Shown here in pieces: positions 10,474 to 20,710 of a stretch of DNA of 64,000 nucleotides. Under the pieces are notes generated by a model. That model saw only the letters and a list, made by a program, of their open reading frames with translations, searched no databases and was not told the DNA's origin. The stretch is from contig JAITLV010000087.1 in the NCBI GenBank assembly GCA_031277685.1, positions 113,996-177,995 on the forward strand, written 5' to 3'. The position numbers and the translations under genes were made by a program. How positions within the stretch are numbered: position 1 is the stretch's first letter; the number at the start of each line of letters is the position of its first letter. The DNA comes from Sphingobacterium sp. Lineage in GTDB: Bacteria; Bacteroidota; Bacteroidia; Sphingobacteriales; Sphingobacteriaceae.

Positions 10474-10640
10474 TATATTTGTAGAGTATTCAGAATTGCA
10501 TGATGCAATACCAACCGAGTGTAGACACCGCGGTGGTAAATTAATACGGGTTTCGACCAAAATAAACGTTACATAACGGTTATTTTCCCAACAAGATCTG
10601 GATACAGTTTATGGTTTAATCCTTTAAATTTTTAAATTGT
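10474..10640 (+). promoter_or_regulatory. Promoter element and structured 5' leader of the 87-residue gene
   Basis: A Bacteroidota -7 element TATATTTG lies at 10474-10481; no TTG is found at the matching -33 position, which is A/T-rich. The predicted leader is about 150 nt. It holds a near-palindrome ATTGCATGATGCAAT (10495-10509), a stem of TACC/CCG with CGGTGGTA (10509-10517 with 10531-10538), and inverted AACGTTA/TAACGTT-like segments near 10565. I recognise no riboswitch class. Upstream of it (10270-10473) I see only AT-rich sequence. Confidence 0.4.
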
Positions 10641-12048: not shown

Positions 12049-13143
12049 TTATTCGATAATAATATTGATACCTACCATTTTAGCCTTGTATTTAATCTTT
12101 TCGATAAGGCCATAGTAGCTCCAGTTGCGCAACAAGAATTCATCACCTTTCGCAATTTCCTCCTTATTGGATTGGTTGACCAGTAAGAGCGTACCCGCTT
12201 GTGCTTTGACGCATAGTTCAATTAGCCTGCGGCTATACAGGTGGAGCTTGGTGTCTACATAATTTTTCTCCTTTTCATTGTAGTGTTCCAAGCTTTTCAT
12301 TTTCCGCTTACGTCCACGCCCACCTTTATCAAATGCAGCTGCCTTCTGCAAGCGATGTCGTGCCGCTTGGATAGCCATACGGCGGTAAGTAAACTCTTCC
12401 TTATTGCCGATCTGAAAGGACTCCTTACCAATAGTCACTGCTATCGGGTGTTCGATAGAAAGCGACGCTTCGGCGATAACGTTATCTTTCAATTCTTGGA
12501 TCTTTTTAGGAAGTTCCAGGGCCAAGAGCAGAAAGATTTTACCTTTAACAATCTTGAGTGCGCTGCTACAGATTTTGATCTGCCCAACGAGTGCACGTTG
12601 GAGCAACACCCTTTTATCCGATCGGTCTTTACCGAGATATGTCCGAAAAGGTATTTTGAATAGTGTGAATTTAAAATCTCTATTATTCTCATCTTTACTC
12701 AAGTTAATTTGTCTACCGGAAAAAGGAATAGGCATGTCCTTTTTATAATTGCGGAGTGATTTTTCACCTTTCCAGTACGAGAGACGATCCGCCTGAAAAT
12801 ATTTGATCAGAGCCGTGTTTATCTGTGATAGAATATCCGTAGGAATTCGTCCCTTAAAATAACTGGACAACAGGCGATAAGTTGTATTCATCCGTGAAGT
12901 ATTCAATACACCTTCGGGATCTTTCGCCTGATCCGCCAATTTTATCTTAACATCTTCTTGCAGATAAATCAGATCTTTCAGATTTTCCTGTACATATTGG
13001 TGGGTGATGACCATATTAGCACCACGGAAGACAAGATCCTGCCATTCAAAGAGCTGTTTAAAATACTCTGATCGTTTTTCTTTATCATCACAATCCACAA
13101 AAACCTGTATTTTGCGTGTCAATACCATTGTATCAGCTGCCAT
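12049..13143 (-). CDS. Nuclease-dead, truncated Cas12f-like protein
   Basis: 364-residue protein of the Cas12f/TnpB (type V) lineage. The N-terminal half has the small Cas12f layout, with SLRNYKKDMPIPFSG (129-143) and a FRTYLGKDRSDKR segment (166-178). The RuvC core is recognisable but inactive: the RuvC-I segment reads AVTIG (235-239), with Thr237 where active enzymes have Asp (GIDLG); the bridge region is basic (GGRGRKRKMK, 274-283); the RuvC-II strand reads LLLVNQ (319-324), with Asn323 in place of catalytic Glu. After NWSYYGLIEKIKYKAKMVGI the protein stops at residue 364, so the zinc finger and RuvC-III Asp are absent. It starts 15 bp after the sigma gene and is probably co-transcribed with it. 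I infer an RNA-guided DNA-binding protein without cleavage. Residue 6 is an alternative start Met. Confidence 0.85.
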   Translation of the reverse strand: MAADTMVLTRKIQVFVDCDDKEKRSEYFKQLFEWQDLVFRGANMVITHQYVQENLKDLIYLQEDVKIKLADQAKDPEGVLNTSRMNTTYRLLSSYFKGRIPTDILSQINTALIKYFQADRLSYWKGEKSLRNYKKDMPIPFSGRQINLSKDENNRDFKFTLFKIPFRTYLGKDRSDKRVLLQRALVGQIKICSSALKIVKGKIFLLLALELPKKIQELKDNVIAEASLSIEHPIAVTIGKESFQIGNKEEFTYRRMAIQAARHRLQKAAAFDKGGRGRKRKMKSLEHYNEKEKNYVDTKLHLYSRRLIELCVKAQAGTLLLVNQSNKEEIAKGDEFLLRNWSYYGLIEKIKYKAKMVGINIIIE

Positions 13144-13158
13144 ATCTTTTTATATTTT

Positions 13159-13971
13159 TTATGCCGTTTTCTTAGCAGATTTAATTTTTGCGTGCGCATT
13201 GATAAATAATGTCCGCACCTGTCCTCCATCCAATTGTAACGCTTCTGAAATCTTGTCAAAAGAATACTGTAATTCATAGCGCATGCGGAAGACTTCAGCC
13301 TCCTCTTCAGTCATTTCGCCATTCAATTTAAATTCGACAGGCTTAGCCATGAGCTGCATTTTCTCTTCACTGTGAATGATGGATCGCAGGTATTCGATTG
13401 TTTTCTCGATTTGAAGACCAACCTCATAATCAGAGATGTTACCCATATAATAAGCGATACGTTCATAGTTAAAACTATATTTGAGGCAAAGGCGAATAAA
13501 GAGCTGTTGATCGCTGTTGAGGTTAGGCATAATGGCATTGAGCTGATCCATTTTATTTTTCTTCTCCAATTCCAGTTGCTCGATATAGAGCACATCGTCT
13601 TCGCTTTCCTCTTCGAGTTCATAGCCCAGCATAAACTCCTGATAGTCTTCAATGCTGTCGAGGCGGAGTAAGCTTCGGTGAAATCTATTGCGCGATTTCT
13701 GATAAAAAGCCTGAATGGCAGACTTCACCTGGGTCTTCAAAAAGTCGAAAACCTCCGTTTCGGAGTGCACATTTTCACGGAACAACCAGAGCCTTAGAAA
13801 TGCTTCCTGCGCAATACTTTCTCCGGTACATTCATCATCGGTGGCACGGCGGGCGCGAAAAAGGAAATGTTCATAGAATTTTTGGTAGAAAAATTTAAGT
13901 CCCTTTTCATAACCATTGTGCAGGTATTCAATGGCTATTTTGATATCCTTGTTTAGTAAAATTGGTTTCAT
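13159..13971 (-). CDS. ECF-like RNA polymerase sigma factor with C-terminal extension, partner of the Cas12f-like protein
   Basis: 270 residues. Residues about 13-98 look like sigma region 2 (EKGLKFFYQKFYEHFLFRAR, then TGESIAQEAFLRLWLFREN, the core-RNA-polymerase-binding and -10-reading part). Residues about 142-200 look like sigma region 4 (LNSDQQLFIRLCL...YERIAYYMG). A second helix-turn-helix-like block follows (about 219-266, EEEAEVFRMRYELQYSFDKI). Ordinary ECF sigmas of about 180-200 residues have one region 4. No anti-sigma gene is adjacent, unlike most Bacteroidota ECF sigmas. The CRISPR array lies directly upstream and the Cas12f-like gene directly downstream, so I infer that the sigma is delivered to DNA by the guide complex. 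Confidence 0.82.
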   Translation of the reverse strand: MKPILLNKDIKIAIEYLHNGYEKGLKFFYQKFYEHFLFRARRATDDECTGESIAQEAFLRLWLFRENVHSETEVFDFLKTQVKSAIQAFYQKSRNRFHRSLLRLDSIEDYQEFMLGYELEEESEDDVLYIEQLELEKKNKMDQLNAIMPNLNSDQQLFIRLCLKYSFNYERIAYYMGNISDYEVGLQIEKTIEYLRSIIHSEEKMQLMAKPVEFKLNGEMTEEEAEVFRMRYELQYSFDKISEALQLDGGQVRTLFINAHAKIKSAKKTA

Positions 13972-14168
13972 AATTCGTTTTTATGGTTAGCAGTACATCA
14001 GCAACCTACCGCAGCTCCGGCGGAACTTGACGGATTTTATGGAAACCGAAGCTGGGTAAGTGTAAATCGTTATATGGTTATAAAAACTTATTGGTATTGA
14101 GAGCGGGTGGTATTGGTTTGTTTTGTGATGATAATTGCCTATCGAATGTCGACTTACTACTCGCGTCC
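13972..14168 (-). ncRNA. Non-coding segment between array and sigma gene: terminal spacer and structured leader, possible guide scaffold
   Basis: No gene is apparent in these 197 bp. On the minus strand the last degenerate repeat is followed by about 30 nt (14139-14168) that could be a terminal spacer. Nearer the sigma gene, arms 14012-14020 and 14046-14054 (CAGCTCCGG with CCGAAGCTG) form a 9-bp stem with one G-U pair. Cas12f enzymes normally need a tracrRNA; I find no convincing anti-repeat here (best is 7 nt), so a scaffold role is a guess. No TAnnTTTG promoter is visible for the sigma gene, suggesting transcription through the array. Confidence 0.3.
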
Positions 14169-15370
14169 GTTGCATACAACCTACATGTTGAAATCATCTA
14201 CATGGGAAAAGGTGTTTAGATTTATTTGGAAGAAGTTGTGGATACCCTATATTTTGAGATCATTAACATCGCATTTTAAAACGCCTGATATTCACTCGTG
14301 CTGTGTATACCCTGCATTTTGAGATCATCAACATCTCGTTTTTGGTTTATTTAAACGACGTTAATGTTGTGTATACCCTGCATTCTGAGATCATCAACAT
14401 CCCAGGCTATGTAGCCATGAATTTCAATCGCGTTGTGTATACCCTGCATTTTGAGATCATCAACATCTTATCAAGGCGGTTGTCGCTAAGCACACCAGGT
14501 TGTGTATACCCTGAATTTTGTATTTTCATAACACCGTTTTCTAAAAAGCTCTTTCTTGTGTATACTTTATGTTTAGATGTCATTAACATCTAAGTTTATT
14601 TGGGATGCCAGATCGCGTTGTTGAATATACCCTGCATTTTGAGAGTATCAACATCAAAAACAGATTTGTCTAAAGGCCAAATTAGGTTGTGTATACCCTG
14701 CATTTTGAGAGCATCAACATCCCTGAGAAATATAGGGAAAGTCACTTTTGAGTTGTGTATACCCTACATTCTGAGATCATCAACATCATAAGCGCAATTG
14801 TTTACAATGATGTGGGTATTGTGTACACCCTACTATTTGAGACCATCAACATCAAAATCGAAACAGAATATCCCGGTTTTAAGGTTGTGTATACCCTGCA
14901 TTCTGAGATCATCAACATCCATGGAATTGAAAGGAATCGAGGAATTCAAGTTGTGTATACCCAACATTCTGAGATCATCAACATCAGCATAGCCTCCCCT
15001 TTTTGCGAATTTTCGGTTGTGTATACCCTGCATTTTGAGATCATCAGCAACCGTGGTATCGCAAAACAAATATAATTGTCAATACCCTACTTTTTGAGAT
15101 CATCAACATCGAGCATCCAAATAAGCCTTATTCAGAGTATGTTGTGTATACCCTGCATTTTGAGATCATCAACATCTTTTGATCCAATTAATCGCCTTGC
15201 TCCATTGTTGTGTATACTCTATATTCTGAGATAATCAACTTCAAGAATTAACAAAATCCGAAAAGCGCCGTTGCATATATCCTATATTTTGAGAGCATCA
15301 ACATCCAAACAGATGAATGTGGAAAATATGATAGGTTGCGTATACCTTCATTTCAATATCATTAACACCC
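14169..15370 (-). CRISPR. CRISPR array: 19 divergent 36-bp repeats, 18 internal spacers
   Basis: Repeats start at 14169, 14235, 14300, 14366, 14432, 14499, 14555, 14620, 14686, 14752, 14818, 14884, 14950, 15016, 15075, 15141, 15207, 15270 and 15335. On the plus strand the consensus begins GTTGTGTATACCCTGCAT and ends TTTGAGATCATCAACATC. Spacers are mostly 29-31 bp; three are short (20, 23 and 27 bp). Repeats near both ends, and those at 14499, 14555, 15075 and 15207, are degenerate; 14366, 14432, 14884 and 15141 are close to consensus. Cas12 guides lie 3' of a repeat ending in CAAC, which is the minus-strand form here, so transcription is predicted on the minus strand, toward the sigma gene. 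No cas1, cas2 or cas4 is present in the window. Confidence 0.93.
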
Positions 15371-15603
15371 TACCTCCTAGTATCCCAATAATAATCAAGA
15401 ACATAGCGTAGAATGTAACTCAACACTTTTTAAAAAAAAGGGTATTTAGTGAGTCGCCATTGCGCTCACCCTACGGCATAACAAGATGCCTCCTATCATC
15501 ATCAAACCGATCAGCAAAACAGCCGATCAGCCTATATTTTTATATTCTCCTTTTTCAATACCAATAAGTCAAAGAACACCTCTCACGCAAAATAATTACT
15601 TTA

Positions 15604-15977: not shown

Positions 15978-15992
15978 GTTTTCCATTTGTAT

Positions 15993-16496
15993 ATGGGATA
16001 TACCAATGAGCATATACTGGAGGAAATTGGGGAGCAATTGCGCATTCAACGTGAAAAATTATACTACACACTGAAAGATGTAGCCAATATGACGGGATTA
16101 ACCACCAACACAATAGCAGCTGTTGAAAAAGGAAAAGGTGCCTCACTGAACAACTTTATCCTGGTCTGCCGCGCTTTAAAAATTCAACCGAACACCATAT
16201 TCAAAAAAGAAATAGATTTAACACCACTCTACAATATTCCCCCTGAATCAAAACGTCGTATCGAAATGACGAAAGAACTGGATGACCTTGTTTACAATTC
16301 CAATTTTTTCGAAATACCCCGTCGCGTTTCTGCTATAATCCAACAGCTGAATGCGAACAAAGAACAAAGCAATAAATTTTCTGTTTATCTCAGCAGCTAC
16401 TGTGAAGAAGGTACGCTGGAGTACGAAAAACATGGAAATTATAAAGAATACCGAAAAAAGCACGCTCCAAAACCTGTCAAAAAGTATAGTAACTGA
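15993..16496 (+). CDS. XRE-family helix-turn-helix regulator
   Basis: A 167-residue DNA-binding protein from the ATG at 15993; a TTG two codons upstream is the alternative start. The HTH_3 domain is at the N-terminus (IGEQLRIQREKLYYTLKDVA, then GLTTNTIAAVEKGKGASLNN), followed by a charged helical C-terminus (ESKRRIEMTKELDDLV) and a basic tail. It is divergent from the presumed array transcript and has palindromic sites on its promoter side, so it may control itself and possibly the array-sigma-Cas12f unit. That link is inference from position only. Confidence 0.85.
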   Translation: MGYTNEHILEEIGEQLRIQREKLYYTLKDVANMTGLTTNTIAAVEKGKGASLNNFILVCRALKIQPNTIFKKEIDLTPLYNIPPESKRRIEMTKELDDLVYNSNFFEIPRRVSAIIQQLNANKEQSNKFSVYLSSYCEEGTLEYEKHGNYKEYRKKHAPKPVKKYSN

Positions 16497-16863: not shown

Positions 16864-18363
16864 TTAAGGATTAATGACCAAACTATTCCCCAGACCAGTC
16901 ATAAAGCCCGGACCGATATTTTGGGCTTTCAGAAGATCACGGTGTTTTGTATCCAATTTAGGTGCTCCTGCATCTGCCGCAGCCGCGAATGGGTAATTTC
17001 CTACAAATGCCCCCAATACCGGGCTGCTGCTTGTGGGTTCATAGATCCCATCATTTGTCAATGTATATTTTGGGTTCTGCCGTGTAAATCCTGCCGGAAG
17101 CTGCTGGCTTGTCGGCACGTCATAGACGATATTACCCTGATAAGTAAAATTAACCGGTTGATCAGTAAAAGTCAGCATAGTGGATTGGGAAGCTTGCGAG
17201 ACAACATTATTGGCAATATGGCCATCTGTTGGTGGCAAAGTACGACTGTTCCCCCCTTTTCCCGAACCGATATCAAATGACTGTTTACATTTGATCATGG
17301 TATTGGCCACCACCTTCACACGTTTTACTTGATAGTAACCGCTTAATGGCGAATTAGGTACACCATCCATTATTGCCAAAGCCGCTTTCTGCCCTGTTCC
17401 AGCCATATTCTGGAAATAATTATTGTAAACGATATGATCCTCTCCGATAATACGGATGCCACCCGCCGCACTGATGCCATTACCGACAAAATAATTCCCA
17501 TACACAACAGAACCATTTCCATGCCGCAAACAAAGCGTTCCCTCGCTCTCATGGAAGAAGTTATTACGGATCGTATCAGCCCCCATTTTGTTGGAGATAA
17601 TTTCCGTTTCACCATTACAACGTTGAAAGATATTATCTTCAATGGTTGTAAATGCACTTGTCATAGACCAATCACTTGTACCGATACGAATGGTCTCGCC
17701 CCCATTATTTGGTAAAGCCGCCCGTTCACCAAAAAAGTTATGATCGATCCGGTGTTTCATGGTTTTGCTTGTCCCCCAGACCACCATTGTAGGACCCTGA
17801 TGCAATTTCCCTTTGAGATAACAATGATCAATACGGTGATTTGATCCGTTGATGGAAACCCAGCGGTAGTCGGTCGTAGCTGTTGGCGGATTATAATCCA
17901 CAATCGAACTATTTGTCAGCCGGCAATTTGATGAAGAGGAGGTGAAATCAACCACATTCTTACCTGAGGTATAACCATTCTGAAAAACAAGACCACTGAC
18001 GACGAGCCATTTTCCCGTAATGCTGATGGAAGAAGTACCTTTCATAATCACGGCTCCAGGTTGTTCCGCCATCAGCACAATAGGCTGTTGGCTGGTTCCC
18101 TGCGCGCTAAATGTCAATTCCTGATCTGTCCATTGACCCGACTTCATAATGACTGTATCGCCAGGCTGCAGGCTTAATGCCTGCAAATCCGCAGCAGATT
18201 GAATGGTATGACATTGTACACAGGCAATACCGTTTAATTGCAATTTTACCGCCGCTGGTTTTTCACAGCTGCTCCCAATCACCAGTAACAGTGATAAAGC
18301 GGATAATACTGAAAAGTTTCTCATCATATTTACTTTGTTTATAAGGTTCATTTTGCCATACAT
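16864..18363 (-). CDS. Polysaccharide lyase family 6 lipoprotein (alginate lyase / chondroitinase B-like)
   Basis: Right-handed beta-helix lyase of PL6, which cleaves uronic-acid polymers (alginate or dermatan sulfate) by beta-elimination. A lipoprotein signal is visible (MMRNFSVLSALSLLLVIGSSC), so the enzyme is probably surface or periplasmic. Motifs fit the PL6 Lys/Arg catalytic pair: NGETEIISNKM with the Lys, and GTLCLRHGNGSVVYGN with the Arg; repeated N-rich turns (RNNFF, YGNYF, YNNYF) mark the helix coils. Last gene of the susC-susD-FAS1-PL6 operon, 2 bp after the previous stop. The exact start is uncertain: MNLIN or MMRNF, four or more codons in, also fit. The substrate is not determined from sequence. 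Confidence 0.85.
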   Translation of the reverse strand: MYGKMNLINKVNMMRNFSVLSALSLLLVIGSSCEKPAAVKLQLNGIACVQCHTIQSAADLQALSLQPGDTVIMKSGQWTDQELTFSAQGTSQQPIVLMAEQPGAVIMKGTSSISITGKWLVVSGLVFQNGYTSGKNVVDFTSSSSNCRLTNSSIVDYNPPTATTDYRWVSINGSNHRIDHCYLKGKLHQGPTMVVWGTSKTMKHRIDHNFFGERAALPNNGGETIRIGTSDWSMTSAFTTIEDNIFQRCNGETEIISNKMGADTIRNNFFHESEGTLCLRHGNGSVVYGNYFVGNGISAAGGIRIIGEDHIVYNNYFQNMAGTGQKAALAIMDGVPNSPLSGYYQVKRVKVVANTMIKCKQSFDIGSGKGGNSRTLPPTDGHIANNVVSQASQSTMLTFTDQPVNFTYQGNIVYDVPTSQQLPAGFTRQNPKYTLTNDGIYEPTSSSPVLGAFVGNYPFAAAADAGAPKLDTKHRDLLKAQNIGPGFMTGLGNSLVINP

Positions 18364-18365
18364 CC

Positions 18366-19124
18366 CTAAAAAGGATACACCGTTGTATTTCCCTTGGATC
18401 CAAAAACATGGACCACGCCATTGGTTGTTATATAACCTCCTGACCTATTCGTCGTCTTATCATTGATCTGAATTGGTGCCAGGTCGTTGTTATTGACCAG
18501 CCTTAAATACATCACACCTTCCTGATTGAAACCTTTGTTATCGTTCAGATAACCAAGCAGCGAACTTTTACTAGCTACTGTATTTGCAGGCAACAAGGTT
18601 TTGGCTTTTAGATTGGAGATGGTTAATTTATCGAAGTTGTAATTACCCTCCAAAATCAGGTAAAGAAAATAATTCCGGACATCTTCTTTGTTATAGTCTT
18701 CCCATTTAGTCGCTGGTCTGGTAATTGGTTTGCCCGTACCGTCCACGCCGGTCACAATCGGAAAATCGAAGAAAAGTCCGGAAGTCACCTTTTTCATTTT
18801 GGCATCCCAGGTTTTTATTGCCTCATTGTGCAAAAAGATAAATGTACGATCGGTTTTATCCAGCTCTTCCAAACCGATCCCCGCATATTCCAGTCCCATC
18901 CGCATCCATTTAAAAACCGTATCCGATGGATTTTCTGTCGTTTCATAGGAGCGGTTTTCCAAAAATTTACGCGCGCTGATGCCGATATTGGGATCCAGTG
19001 TTTTATGTTTATAATCGTAGTTCTCCTGTAATTCCAAATCGAATAATGAGCAACTTGCCATTAGCAGCAGGTTTACCACAATAACACCATATTGTGCCCA
19101 TTTTATGTTAGACATTCTTTTCAT
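18366..19124 (-). CDS. Fasciclin (FAS1)-like PUL lipoprotein
   Basis: 252 residues with a lipoprotein signal (VIVVNLLLMASC). The segment from about residue 50 to 230 has the FAS1 layout: a first helix motif (SDTVFKWMRMGLEYAGIGLEEL), then RTFIFLHNEAI in place of the usual TVFAPTDEAF, and a C-terminal GGYITTNGVVHVFGS. FAS1-like lipoproteins of this type occur in susCD operons and may act as surface glycan-binding or adhesion proteins; no function is shown here. Lies between susD and the PL6 gene. Confidence 0.65.
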   Translation of the reverse strand: MKRMSNIKWAQYGVIVVNLLLMASCSLFDLELQENYDYKHKTLDPNIGISARKFLENRSYETTENPSDTVFKWMRMGLEYAGIGLEELDKTDRTFIFLHNEAIKTWDAKMKKVTSGLFFDFPIVTGVDGTGKPITRPATKWEDYNKEDVRNYFLYLILEGNYNFDKLTISNLKAKTLLPANTVASKSSLLGYLNDNKGFNQEGVMYLRLVNNNDLAPIQINDKTTNRSGGYITTNGVVHVFGSKGNTTVYPF

Positions 19125-19147
19125 GACTCTTTGTTTATATGCATCTA

Positions 19148-20710
19148 TTAATCTGTATATCCCGGATTTTGCACCAATAAGTTATTCGCATTCATCACGC
19201 TACGATTGAGGGGCCAGTATACCCGGTTTTGGGGATCCAGAAATCCAGGTTTGTCCAGGCTGCCGGCATCTTCCTGTCTACGCTTCAAAATTGGATCCAT
19301 GACCTCCTTCACCCTTCCTGTCCGCACCAGATCAAACCAGCGTTTCCCCTCGCCAAAAAGCTCCACCCTGCGTTCGTTTAATATCGCTGTTTCTAACTGG
19401 TAAGCTGTGGCTAGTTGCGCGTCATTCACATCGTATTCGGCTAAACGGGCACGCTTTCGTATAAAATTGAGGTATTTGACCGCATTCGCCTTATCTCCTA
19501 ATCCGTTCAATGCCTCTGCATACAGCAGATACATGTCGCTCAATCTATACATGGTTAAATACACCGGAAGTTCTTGGTTGGCTGCCAGCCAGGGATCTGC
19601 TTTGGTTGGATTTGCTTCAGTCGGATACCATTTTATAAATCGGTCCCGCTTATTGCTTGGTAAACCAAAATAGATATCCAAGGTCTGTTGCGGACGAATG
19701 TCCGGACTACGGCCATCTGTTGTTTGGGGCAAAAACAAGTTGGCAAAAACATCTTCATCCACAACAATCTGTTTATTGTTGGGAGCCCAGGAAGTCTGCA
19801 TACAGGCACAGCCGTTTTTCGTATAATCCCAGTTGACACTCCAAATGGTTTCTTTACTGAGCAGTGGGCTCGTGAAAATCGCTTTCCATGAAGCCGTTTC
19901 CTGCAAATTTGTTTCATTAATACCACCGTAGTTCACCCCTGTCGGAGATTTGGCCAAAAATAGCTTTTCGATCCATATTTTCGCGTTCGAATAATCCTTC
20001 TTCCACATATAGGCATCGGCCATGATAGCACATACTCCACCGGCGCCAAGTGTCCATAGGGGACTTTTGGCATCCTTGTTTATGAGAGAATAGGCTTTTT
20101 CCAGATCCGGAATGATCACCTCGTTCAAAATTTTATCTTTGGATTCACGGGCTTTCTCCGCTGGCTGGTTGATGTCTTCATAGGGCTCCAACCAGATCGG
20201 CGCATCACCCCAGACACGGACAAGATAGAAATAGCACATGGCACGCAATGCATAACATTGTGCCAGATAATCATTCAACATTTCAGGTGTGATCCGGCTG
20301 TCCAGTTCAGCCGCACGGGGAATGTATTTGATATTTAAATTCGTCCGGCTGATTACCGTATATAGGCCGCTCCAATCGGAGAATTGATTCGTCGGCGTCA
20401 AGCTGTTCAACACAATCTCGTCAATAAAATCTTTTGTATAACTGATTGCCCGATCAAAATTATCTGCACGGTATTCGCCCCAATACAGGTATTTTTCCAG
20501 GAAATTGTCCTTATTGTTATCCAAATTACCCTTTCCGACCATTTCGATCTGAAAACCGCTATACATACCAGCTATCGCAGCTTGGACATCGTATAAATTT
20601 TTATAATGCTGATCTAAGGCAACTTCCGCCAATGGTTTTTCTTCCAGAAATTTGCTGCAGCTGCTGAAACCCGCTGACAGAAGTAGTAATGCTAAAATCT
20701 TTGTTTTCAT
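19148..20710 (-). CDS. SusD/RagB-family glycan-binding lipoprotein
   Basis: 520-residue outer-membrane lipoprotein that caps the SusC channel and binds the oligosaccharide. Signal peptide and lipobox (LLLLSAGFSSC), SusD-like N-terminal start (KFLEEKPLAEVALDQHYKN), TPR-like middle (CYALRAMCYFYLVRVWGDAP) and the C-terminal hallmark ILNERRVELFGEGKRWFDLV. It follows susC by 12 bp and is clearly in one operon with it. Confidence 0.95.
   Translation of the reverse strand: MKTKILALLLLSAGFSSCSKFLEEKPLAEVALDQHYKNLYDVQAAIAGMYSGFQIEMVGKGNLDNNKDNFLEKYLYWGEYRADNFDRAISYTKDFIDEIVLNSLTPTNQFSDWSGLYTVISRTNLNIKYIPRAAELDSRITPEMLNDYLAQCYALRAMCYFYLVRVWGDAPIWLEPYEDINQPAEKARESKDKILNEVIIPDLEKAYSLINKDAKSPLWTLGAGGVCAIMADAYMWKKDYSNAKIWIEKLFLAKSPTGVNYGGINETNLQETASWKAIFTSPLLSKETIWSVNWDYTKNGCACMQTSWAPNNKQIVVDEDVFANLFLPQTTDGRSPDIRPQQTLDIYFGLPSNKRDRFIKWYPTEANPTKADPWLAANQELPVYLTMYRLSDMYLLYAEALNGLGDKANAVKYLNFIRKRARLAEYDVNDAQLATAYQLETAILNERRVELFGEGKRWFDLVRTGRVKEVMDPILKRRQEDAGSLDKPGFLDPQNRVYWPLNRSVMNANNLLVQNPGYTD

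Follow-up and report, generated by a model that had tools for sequence, protein, structure and literature searches.

The closest described relatives of the locus analysed here are the dCas12f-sigma systems, the subject of papers of 2025, whose solved structures (9n9c, 9n9m, 9n9o and 9n9q) contain a nuclease-dead Cas12f (dCas12f) of about 365 amino acids, an extended RpoE-type sigma factor and a guide RNA. We analysed a 64,000-nucleotide stretch of a Sphingobacterium genome (the window; contig JAITLV010000087.1), in which a first-pass annotation had noticed a repeat array, an extended extracytoplasmic function (ECF)-like sigma factor and a Cas12f-like protein in a row, and had proposed that a guide complex brings the sigma factor and RNA polymerase to chosen sites and activates genes. 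All three elements are confirmed, as is the 15-bp gap between the two protein genes, and the Cas12f-like protein is 48% identical to its solved counterpart. Judged from sequence, the predicted dCas12f and the sigma factor very probably work jointly as an RNA-guided activator of transcription. Its guides would come from the adjacent array, several spacers of which match host sites on the coding strand, upstream of predicted SusC/thioredoxin-type uptake operons; the mechanism proposed by the annotation is thus the best supported one. Four features carry this reading:

12049..13143, minus strand: Cas12f-like protein of 364 amino acids (predicted dCas12f), with RuvC acidic positions replaced or absent
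13159..13971, minus strand: ECF-like sigma factor of 270 amino acids, the likely partner of dCas12f (TIGR02937, 9n9q_C and linkage)
14169..15369, minus strand: guide array of 19 degenerate 36-nt repeats, minus-strand consensus GATGTTGATGATCTCAAAATGCAGGGTATACACAAC, with spacers S1 to S19 (repeat calls and the arrays of relatives)
15433..15495, minus strand: element resembling a trans-activating CRISPR RNA (tracrRNA), with two hairpins and an anti-repeat, then a T run (conservation, covariation and repeat pairing)

The order of transcription on the minus strand is tracrRNA-like element, array, sigma gene and Cas12f-like gene, and a gene for an XRE-family regulator is divergent to them. Comparison with solved structures shows the 364-residue protein to be closely related to 9n9c, 'Nuclease-deactivated Cas12f' (E = 2.8e-124). 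In an alignment to 9nzo_B, a Cas12f that retains the RuvC acids, the first and second acidic positions fall on S227 and V322, and the region of the third is absent because the protein stops earlier (the 9nzo_B chain has 506 residues, aligned to 414). A scan of GTDB genome contigs yielded 29 related loci, 26 of which are titled Sphingobacterium. None of the 27 full-length relatives, a set that leaves out L065 (early stop in the reading used) and the remnant L070, retains the catalytic positions, and we predict that the protein of the window is nuclease-dead.

The 270-residue open reading frame (ORF) matches the sigma70-ECF model TIGR02937 with 44.9 bits (cut-off 42.9) and, over residues 15–265, chain 9n9q_C, 'RpoE' (E = 2.1e-38). 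A sigma homologue is found upstream of dCas12f in 28 of the 29 related loci; the exception is L070, a short remnant that has none, and the sigma match of L071 covers the first 152 residues only. Since this pairing recurs in 28 of 29 loci and arrays are present in all nine close loci, a chance arrangement is excluded. The extended sigma factor had been taken for a trait of this locus, but its length is typical of the family (261 residues in the solved RpoE). The first-pass annotation had also suggested that both proteins be compared with the dCas12f-sigma family and had suspected that the principle was already known; both match the solved dCas12f/RpoE pair, and the principle is therefore indeed known, although its description, in other bacteria, is recent.

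By sequence, then, the machine is of the known dCas12f-sigma kind: it is related to solved dCas12f in sequence and fold, has lost the RuvC acids, has a linked extended sigma factor and has, at the sequence level, a guide RNA whose host targets precede genes. Compared by way of the solved structures, the present locus may differ in its 19-repeat degenerate array and repeated tracrRNA-like element, with which many loci would be addressed. What the analysis adds to the known kind is a readable multi-guide regulon, a 5' motif, the tracrRNA-like element and a puzzle, the acquisition of guides directed at the own genome.

Further dCas12f relatives were seen in passing. The genome of the window contains a second dCas12f (L002, G000:C83) that is 74% identical, starts at residue 24 and has no sigma gene visible beside it, as well as, at the end of a contig, a C-terminal fragment with 99% identity (L003, G000:C211). 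An IMG/VR contig classed as viral (L201) encodes a relative with 44% identity.

In the window array, S1 adjoins position 15334 and S19 adjoins 14169. The spacers are 20–31 nt long, mostly 30 nt, and the repeat copies match the consensus at 21 to 36 of 36 positions, with strong degeneration in copies 1, 13, 14 and 19 (21, 26, 24 and 27 matches, respectively). We compared the window's own genome (G000) with eight relatives (G001–G008), whose dCas12f proteins are 98–99% identical to that of the window. Arrays of 8–23 repeats lie at the same place in all nine close loci, the window included, but their contents differ: 129 spacer-length intervals fall into 102 groups at 93% identity, and 24 of these groups hold more than one member. 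The spacer set used below comprises 124 spacers from the nine arrays, with intervals longer than 45 nt or shorter than 18 nt and TATATTTG units excluded.

Whole-genome BLAST searches were performed with four of the nine close arrays, those of the window, L043, L044 and L047, against the nine genomes, which yielded numerous spacer matches, and the array of L069 was also used in a whole-genome search; the arrays of L045, L046, L048, L067 and L068 were compared only with signature upstream regions (see below). The window array matches its own genome at S8 (exact over 31 nt; C301), S11 (28/30; C207) and S2 (24/27; C2), and S6 gives a partial match (E = 0.39, local score 20). S9 has a weak match (E = 0.5–0.7) in four genomes, G000 (L020, G000:C174), G004, G006 and G008, which we did not count; the G000 match precedes by about 170 bp a gene resembling msrB.

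Genes downstream of spacer matches share a rare 5' coding signature, ATGTTTAGTTTATCNGCYCAGACGCCCCGC (MFSLSAQTPRKDSG). The nine genomes hold 65 copies of this signature and none of the reversed pattern, and the signature peptide motif is absent from the 558 kb around the array loci. Representative signature genes encode thioredoxin-like or TonB-plug/CarbopepD_reg_2 (SusC-like) domains. Among non-array matches in called spacers, 30 of 38 at E ≤ 0.05 lie on the same strand and at most 4 kb upstream of a signature (25/30 at E ≤ 0.01 and 18/22 at E ≤ 0.001), a placement expected by chance for approximately 0.0022 of matches. Some of the 38 rows represent one target matched by related spacers and are not independent, and the count is partly circular, since the signature was discovered through the first matches.

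This circularity does not affect the controls by strand, reversal, shuffling and motif. When spacers are compared with the signature upstream regions of their own genome, 24 of 124 reach a score of at least 18 in sense orientation and 1 of 124 does so in antisense; none of 124 reversed and none of 1240 shuffled comparisons reaches it. With nine arrays against nine genomes, 1116 comparisons for each orientation, a local score of at least 20 occurs 124 times in sense and never in antisense; the 124 sense cases are not independent and collapse to 42 spacer families, which match 95 sites at 50 of the 65 signature loci (ungapped pairs). Some loci contain several target sites, and at G007:C205 the DNA upstream of a single operon is tiled by six sites around 134977 that match spacers from several arrays.

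The protospacers have a 5' motif. Position −1 is a purine (R) in 36 of the 42 families (p = 6e-7), position −2 is a pyrimidine (Y) in 38 (p = 7e-8) and the full motif YYR is present in 28, whereas the 3' flanks of the 42 families show no motif. As the flanks were unused in the target search, the motif is independent of matching, and it supports the direction in which the first-pass annotation had read the array, toward the sigma gene. The protospacer-adjacent motif (PAM) of Cas12f is T-rich/purine, and YYR resembles it; among the dCas12f-sigma systems, a tested homologue reportedly has a minimal 5'-G motif, in place of the YYR found here. The array itself is mostly devoid of YYR because its repeat mostly ends in CAAC. 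Identity along the spacer is 0.905 (positions 1–10), 0.893 (11–20) and 0.851 (21–30); there is no clear seed, and we rejected conservation of a seed alone.

Same-genome pairs of spacer and target also occur in isolates: S. athyrii has one at 28/30, S. puteale two at 28/30 and GVS05A one at 30/30. In S. pedocola, whose dCas12f is 78% identical to that of the window, one spacer has a 31/31 match with a SusC-like/SusD-like pair about 800 bp downstream, a second matches where another pair of this type follows at about 490 bp, and the target of a third lies 20 bp before a gene with a thioredoxin domain, after which comes a SusC-like gene (all assigned by Pfam); two of the five target regions read have no uptake-operon context. 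The first genes of all three target operons start with MRKLRK (L232, L233 and L235) in place of the MFSLSAQT signature, which indicates that the operon-start signature differs by clade.

Conservation of the signature extends to the nucleotide sequence, even at synonymous positions, and the coding start contains a hairpin-like GCCCCGC..GCGGGGC (65 sites, e.g., L119 near 6100). Perhaps it is an attenuator or a recombination point common to the operons. An ORF of 124 amino acids without a Pfam match (L113:5468-5842 and similar) is the first gene of several target operons; by a crude pattern, it is found near 10 of the 65 signatures, one instance being spurious.

The tracrRNA-like element was missing from the first-pass annotation and sits just beyond the region that it covered. 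The remaining features of the guide-RNA region are as follows:

15334..15495, minus strand: possible natural single-guide unit, in which the tracrRNA-like element is read into repeat 1 and S1 (predicted cis pairing)
15052..15074, minus strand: S5, a promoter-like 23-nt interval (TATATTTG), retained as a 23–25-nt unit in five of nine arrays
15555..15576, minus strand: conserved block CTTTGA..TATTGGTAT upstream of the tracrRNA-like element, a putative guide-RNA promoter
15987..16496, plus strand: divergent XRE-family regulator (HTH_3, E = 1.1e-07)

The element, 57–63 nt in length, flanks the window array on its 5' side. It has copies in 24 of 28 loci tested, with one to six per locus and some within arrays; one copy lies away from the main array (L200 1719-1778, G003:C188). 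In an alignment of 35 copies, the two hairpins show double-sided compensatory changes in 5 of 12 pairs. The element has ATACCCT at its 3' end, the complement of the AGGGTAT found in the repeat, and in other clades anti-repeat and repeat are both altered (ATACTTT with AAAGGTAT; ATACCTT with AAGGTAT). The own anti-repeat forms a longer stem than shuffled anti-repeats in 22 of 25 loci, with a modest mean gain (6.88 versus 5.84); 5 of 30 loci were skipped in this test, their element or repeats being wanting. Conservation and covariation make the case for the element, since its folding alone is only mildly better than that of shuffles (z = −1.2 to −2.4). Rfam lists no entry in the array region.

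Cis pairing appears in the predicted fold of the candidate single-guide unit, at a z of only −1.78. L065 (6900-8850) has six tracrRNA-like copies, five of them with a repeat directly 3', and few repeats overall (7 by pattern), an arrangement as natural single guides would be expected to have. Stretches that resemble S5 also occur outside arrays; S5 looks like a promoter by the consensus that we assume, and it is probably an internal promoter and not a guide. The CTTTGA..TATTGGTAT block is present in 17 of 18 loci examined, 31–84 nt upstream of the element in 16 and 778 nt upstream in L071; a scan of the region for sigma-70 promoters and terminators gave nothing above chance. Of the 29 related loci, 18 have an upstream, divergently oriented XRE homologue, that of L049 being only 51% identical and about 4 kb away. 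In 7 of 8 close loci, the window among them, palindromes of the TTTGCGCAAA type lie between the XRE gene and the tracrRNA-like element, and 16% of random 450-nt stretches contain any palindrome as long as these. The XRE protein may control the guide-RNA promoter.

The mechanism we propose has four steps. Array and tracrRNA-like element would be transcribed toward the sigma gene, as their orientation and the conserved block suggest, possibly under XRE control. The anti-repeat would then pair with each repeat to give guides, in line with the conserved complementarity between them. Guide-loaded dCas12f would bind host sites that have the observed 5'-YYR beside the protospacer. Finally, the sigma factor bound to dCas12f would bring RNA polymerase, and transcription would proceed downstream into the operon; the solved homologous pair and the all-sense orientation of the targets point to this step, and activation of the target operons is likely. 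One array would in this way tune several outer-membrane uptake operons together, and spacer swaps would rewire the set between species.

Several observations weigh against this activator. Own-genome scores stay below 18 for 100 of the 124 spacers (in G008, 0 of 7 reach it), most spacers have no identified target and only 6 of the 19 window spacers have a host match (S2, S6 in part, S8 and S11 in the own genome; S4 and S16 in relatives). The sole exact match in the own genome, that of S8, falls on the antisense strand of an S41 peptidase ORF, with no signature nearby and without YYR, a motif also missing in 14 of the 42 families. Ten more non-array rows at E ≤ 0.05 lie outside called spacers, none of them near a signature, so that 30 of 48 remain when all are counted; these are three matches of the tracrRNA-like element (G003:C188), the promoter-like S5 row (G005:C14), rows on repeats (G005:C6, G008:C38, G001:C12 and G007:C214) and rows in long uncalled intervals (G000:C248 and G005:C2), of which the one at G000:C248 resembles a spacer left unsplit by the spacer caller. 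Many targets lie inside or antisense to other ORFs. The fixed distance upstream of starts that the first-pass annotation had looked for is not what we find: targets lie 76 to 3715 bp from the signature ATG, which led us to reject a fixed spacing, and there is mere enrichment at 100–150 bp before an ORF start (19 of 95 sites, versus 4% at random positions). The genome itself is an assembly in 342 contigs with 9% contamination.

These points have to be set against three other explanations. To our knowledge, TldR has no sigma partner in its operon. As described in PMC13418256, TldR proteins, nuclease-dead relatives of TnpB, act as RNA-guided repressors and are thus, like the present protein, nuclease-dead RNA-guided DNA-binding proteins for gene control. 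If dCas12f likewise blocked transcription from upstream of the operons, as TldR or CRISPR interference would, and the sigma factor served otherwise, targets in possibly transcribed sequence, of which there are some, would fit. We regard repression as unlikely: TldR represses, whereas here a multi-guide array is present and the sigma homologue that adjoins dCas12f in nearly all loci matches the solved partner, and a promoter block need not be confined to the coding strand, yet 124 sense cases stand against no antisense case. Similarity of spacers to the chromosome could also be a by-product of duplicated promoter DNA of paralogous operons, captured by chance into an array without present targets. 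The upstream regions of the targets are in fact partly paralogous (e.g., the GGCGCTTTTCGG block), and the many spacers without a target fit this explanation as well, but chance capture would give no reason to expect a 5' motif, exact pairs of 30–31 nt exist and the 42 families match most of the signature loci; we consider it very unlikely.

The locus shares its fold, its repeat/tracr organisation and a 5' T-rich/purine motif with type V-F CRISPR-Cas12f, and a relic of such an immune system, with a decaying array, leftover spacers and a dead effector, would account for the degenerate repeats, the resemblance of YYR to Cas12f PAMs and the absence of Cas1, which had been noted in the first-pass annotation and which extends to all nine genomes, the own one included (Cas1 in 0 of 9; the control was positive in 9 of 14; Cas2 had no genome-wide search). 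What separates the locus from type V-F is, besides Cas1, the loss of the catalytic residues and of the C-terminal part, the sigma partner and spacers directed against own operons. A search of 72,556 plasmids with the window array found nothing, and 50,697 phage records, in which phages of the genus may be poorly sampled, gave only two matches, both at E = 0.4; four of its 19 spacers have no exact match in viral contigs. Spacers that match only phages would have spoken against the proposal of the first-pass annotation; in fact, host DNA is matched, on the coding strand upstream of operons and next to a Cas12-like 5' motif. A relic would also hardly keep its dCas12f nearly unchanged although spacers turn over, or match host operons on one strand only, and we consider this explanation scarcely credible.

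The activator that we favour has other neighbours in the window. A chondroitinase-B-like gene and a SusD-like gene adjoin the locus (16864-20710, minus strand), and a SAM-I/IV riboswitch lies 5' of a small ORF at 10481-10574 (plus strand, 50.5 bits). The window spacers have no convincing match in the rest of the window, the SusD/chondroitinase-like cluster included, and we rejected local targets there.

Bacteroidota possess many sigma factors and SusC-type uptake operons, the wiring of which is mostly unknown. In the present locus, the wiring of a regulon is readable from sequence as guide, motif, strand and operon. If the activator is real, a whole regulon would be predictable from its array, comparable between species and testable by spacer editing. 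The array also poses a puzzle, namely how guides against the own genome are acquired in the absence of Cas1, with the effector nearly constant. Tentatively, and with the balance leaning against it, the locus might be a heritable and rewritable regulatory memory: in this clade, a Cas1-free CRISPR-like array would keep capturing 30-nt pieces of self-DNA, with a Cas12f-type 5' motif as the criterion of choice, would retain them solely in the orientation that activates, and would select through dCas12f-sigma which of a set of shuffled uptake operons is switched on. If so, species with 98–99% identical dCas12f would run different regulons.

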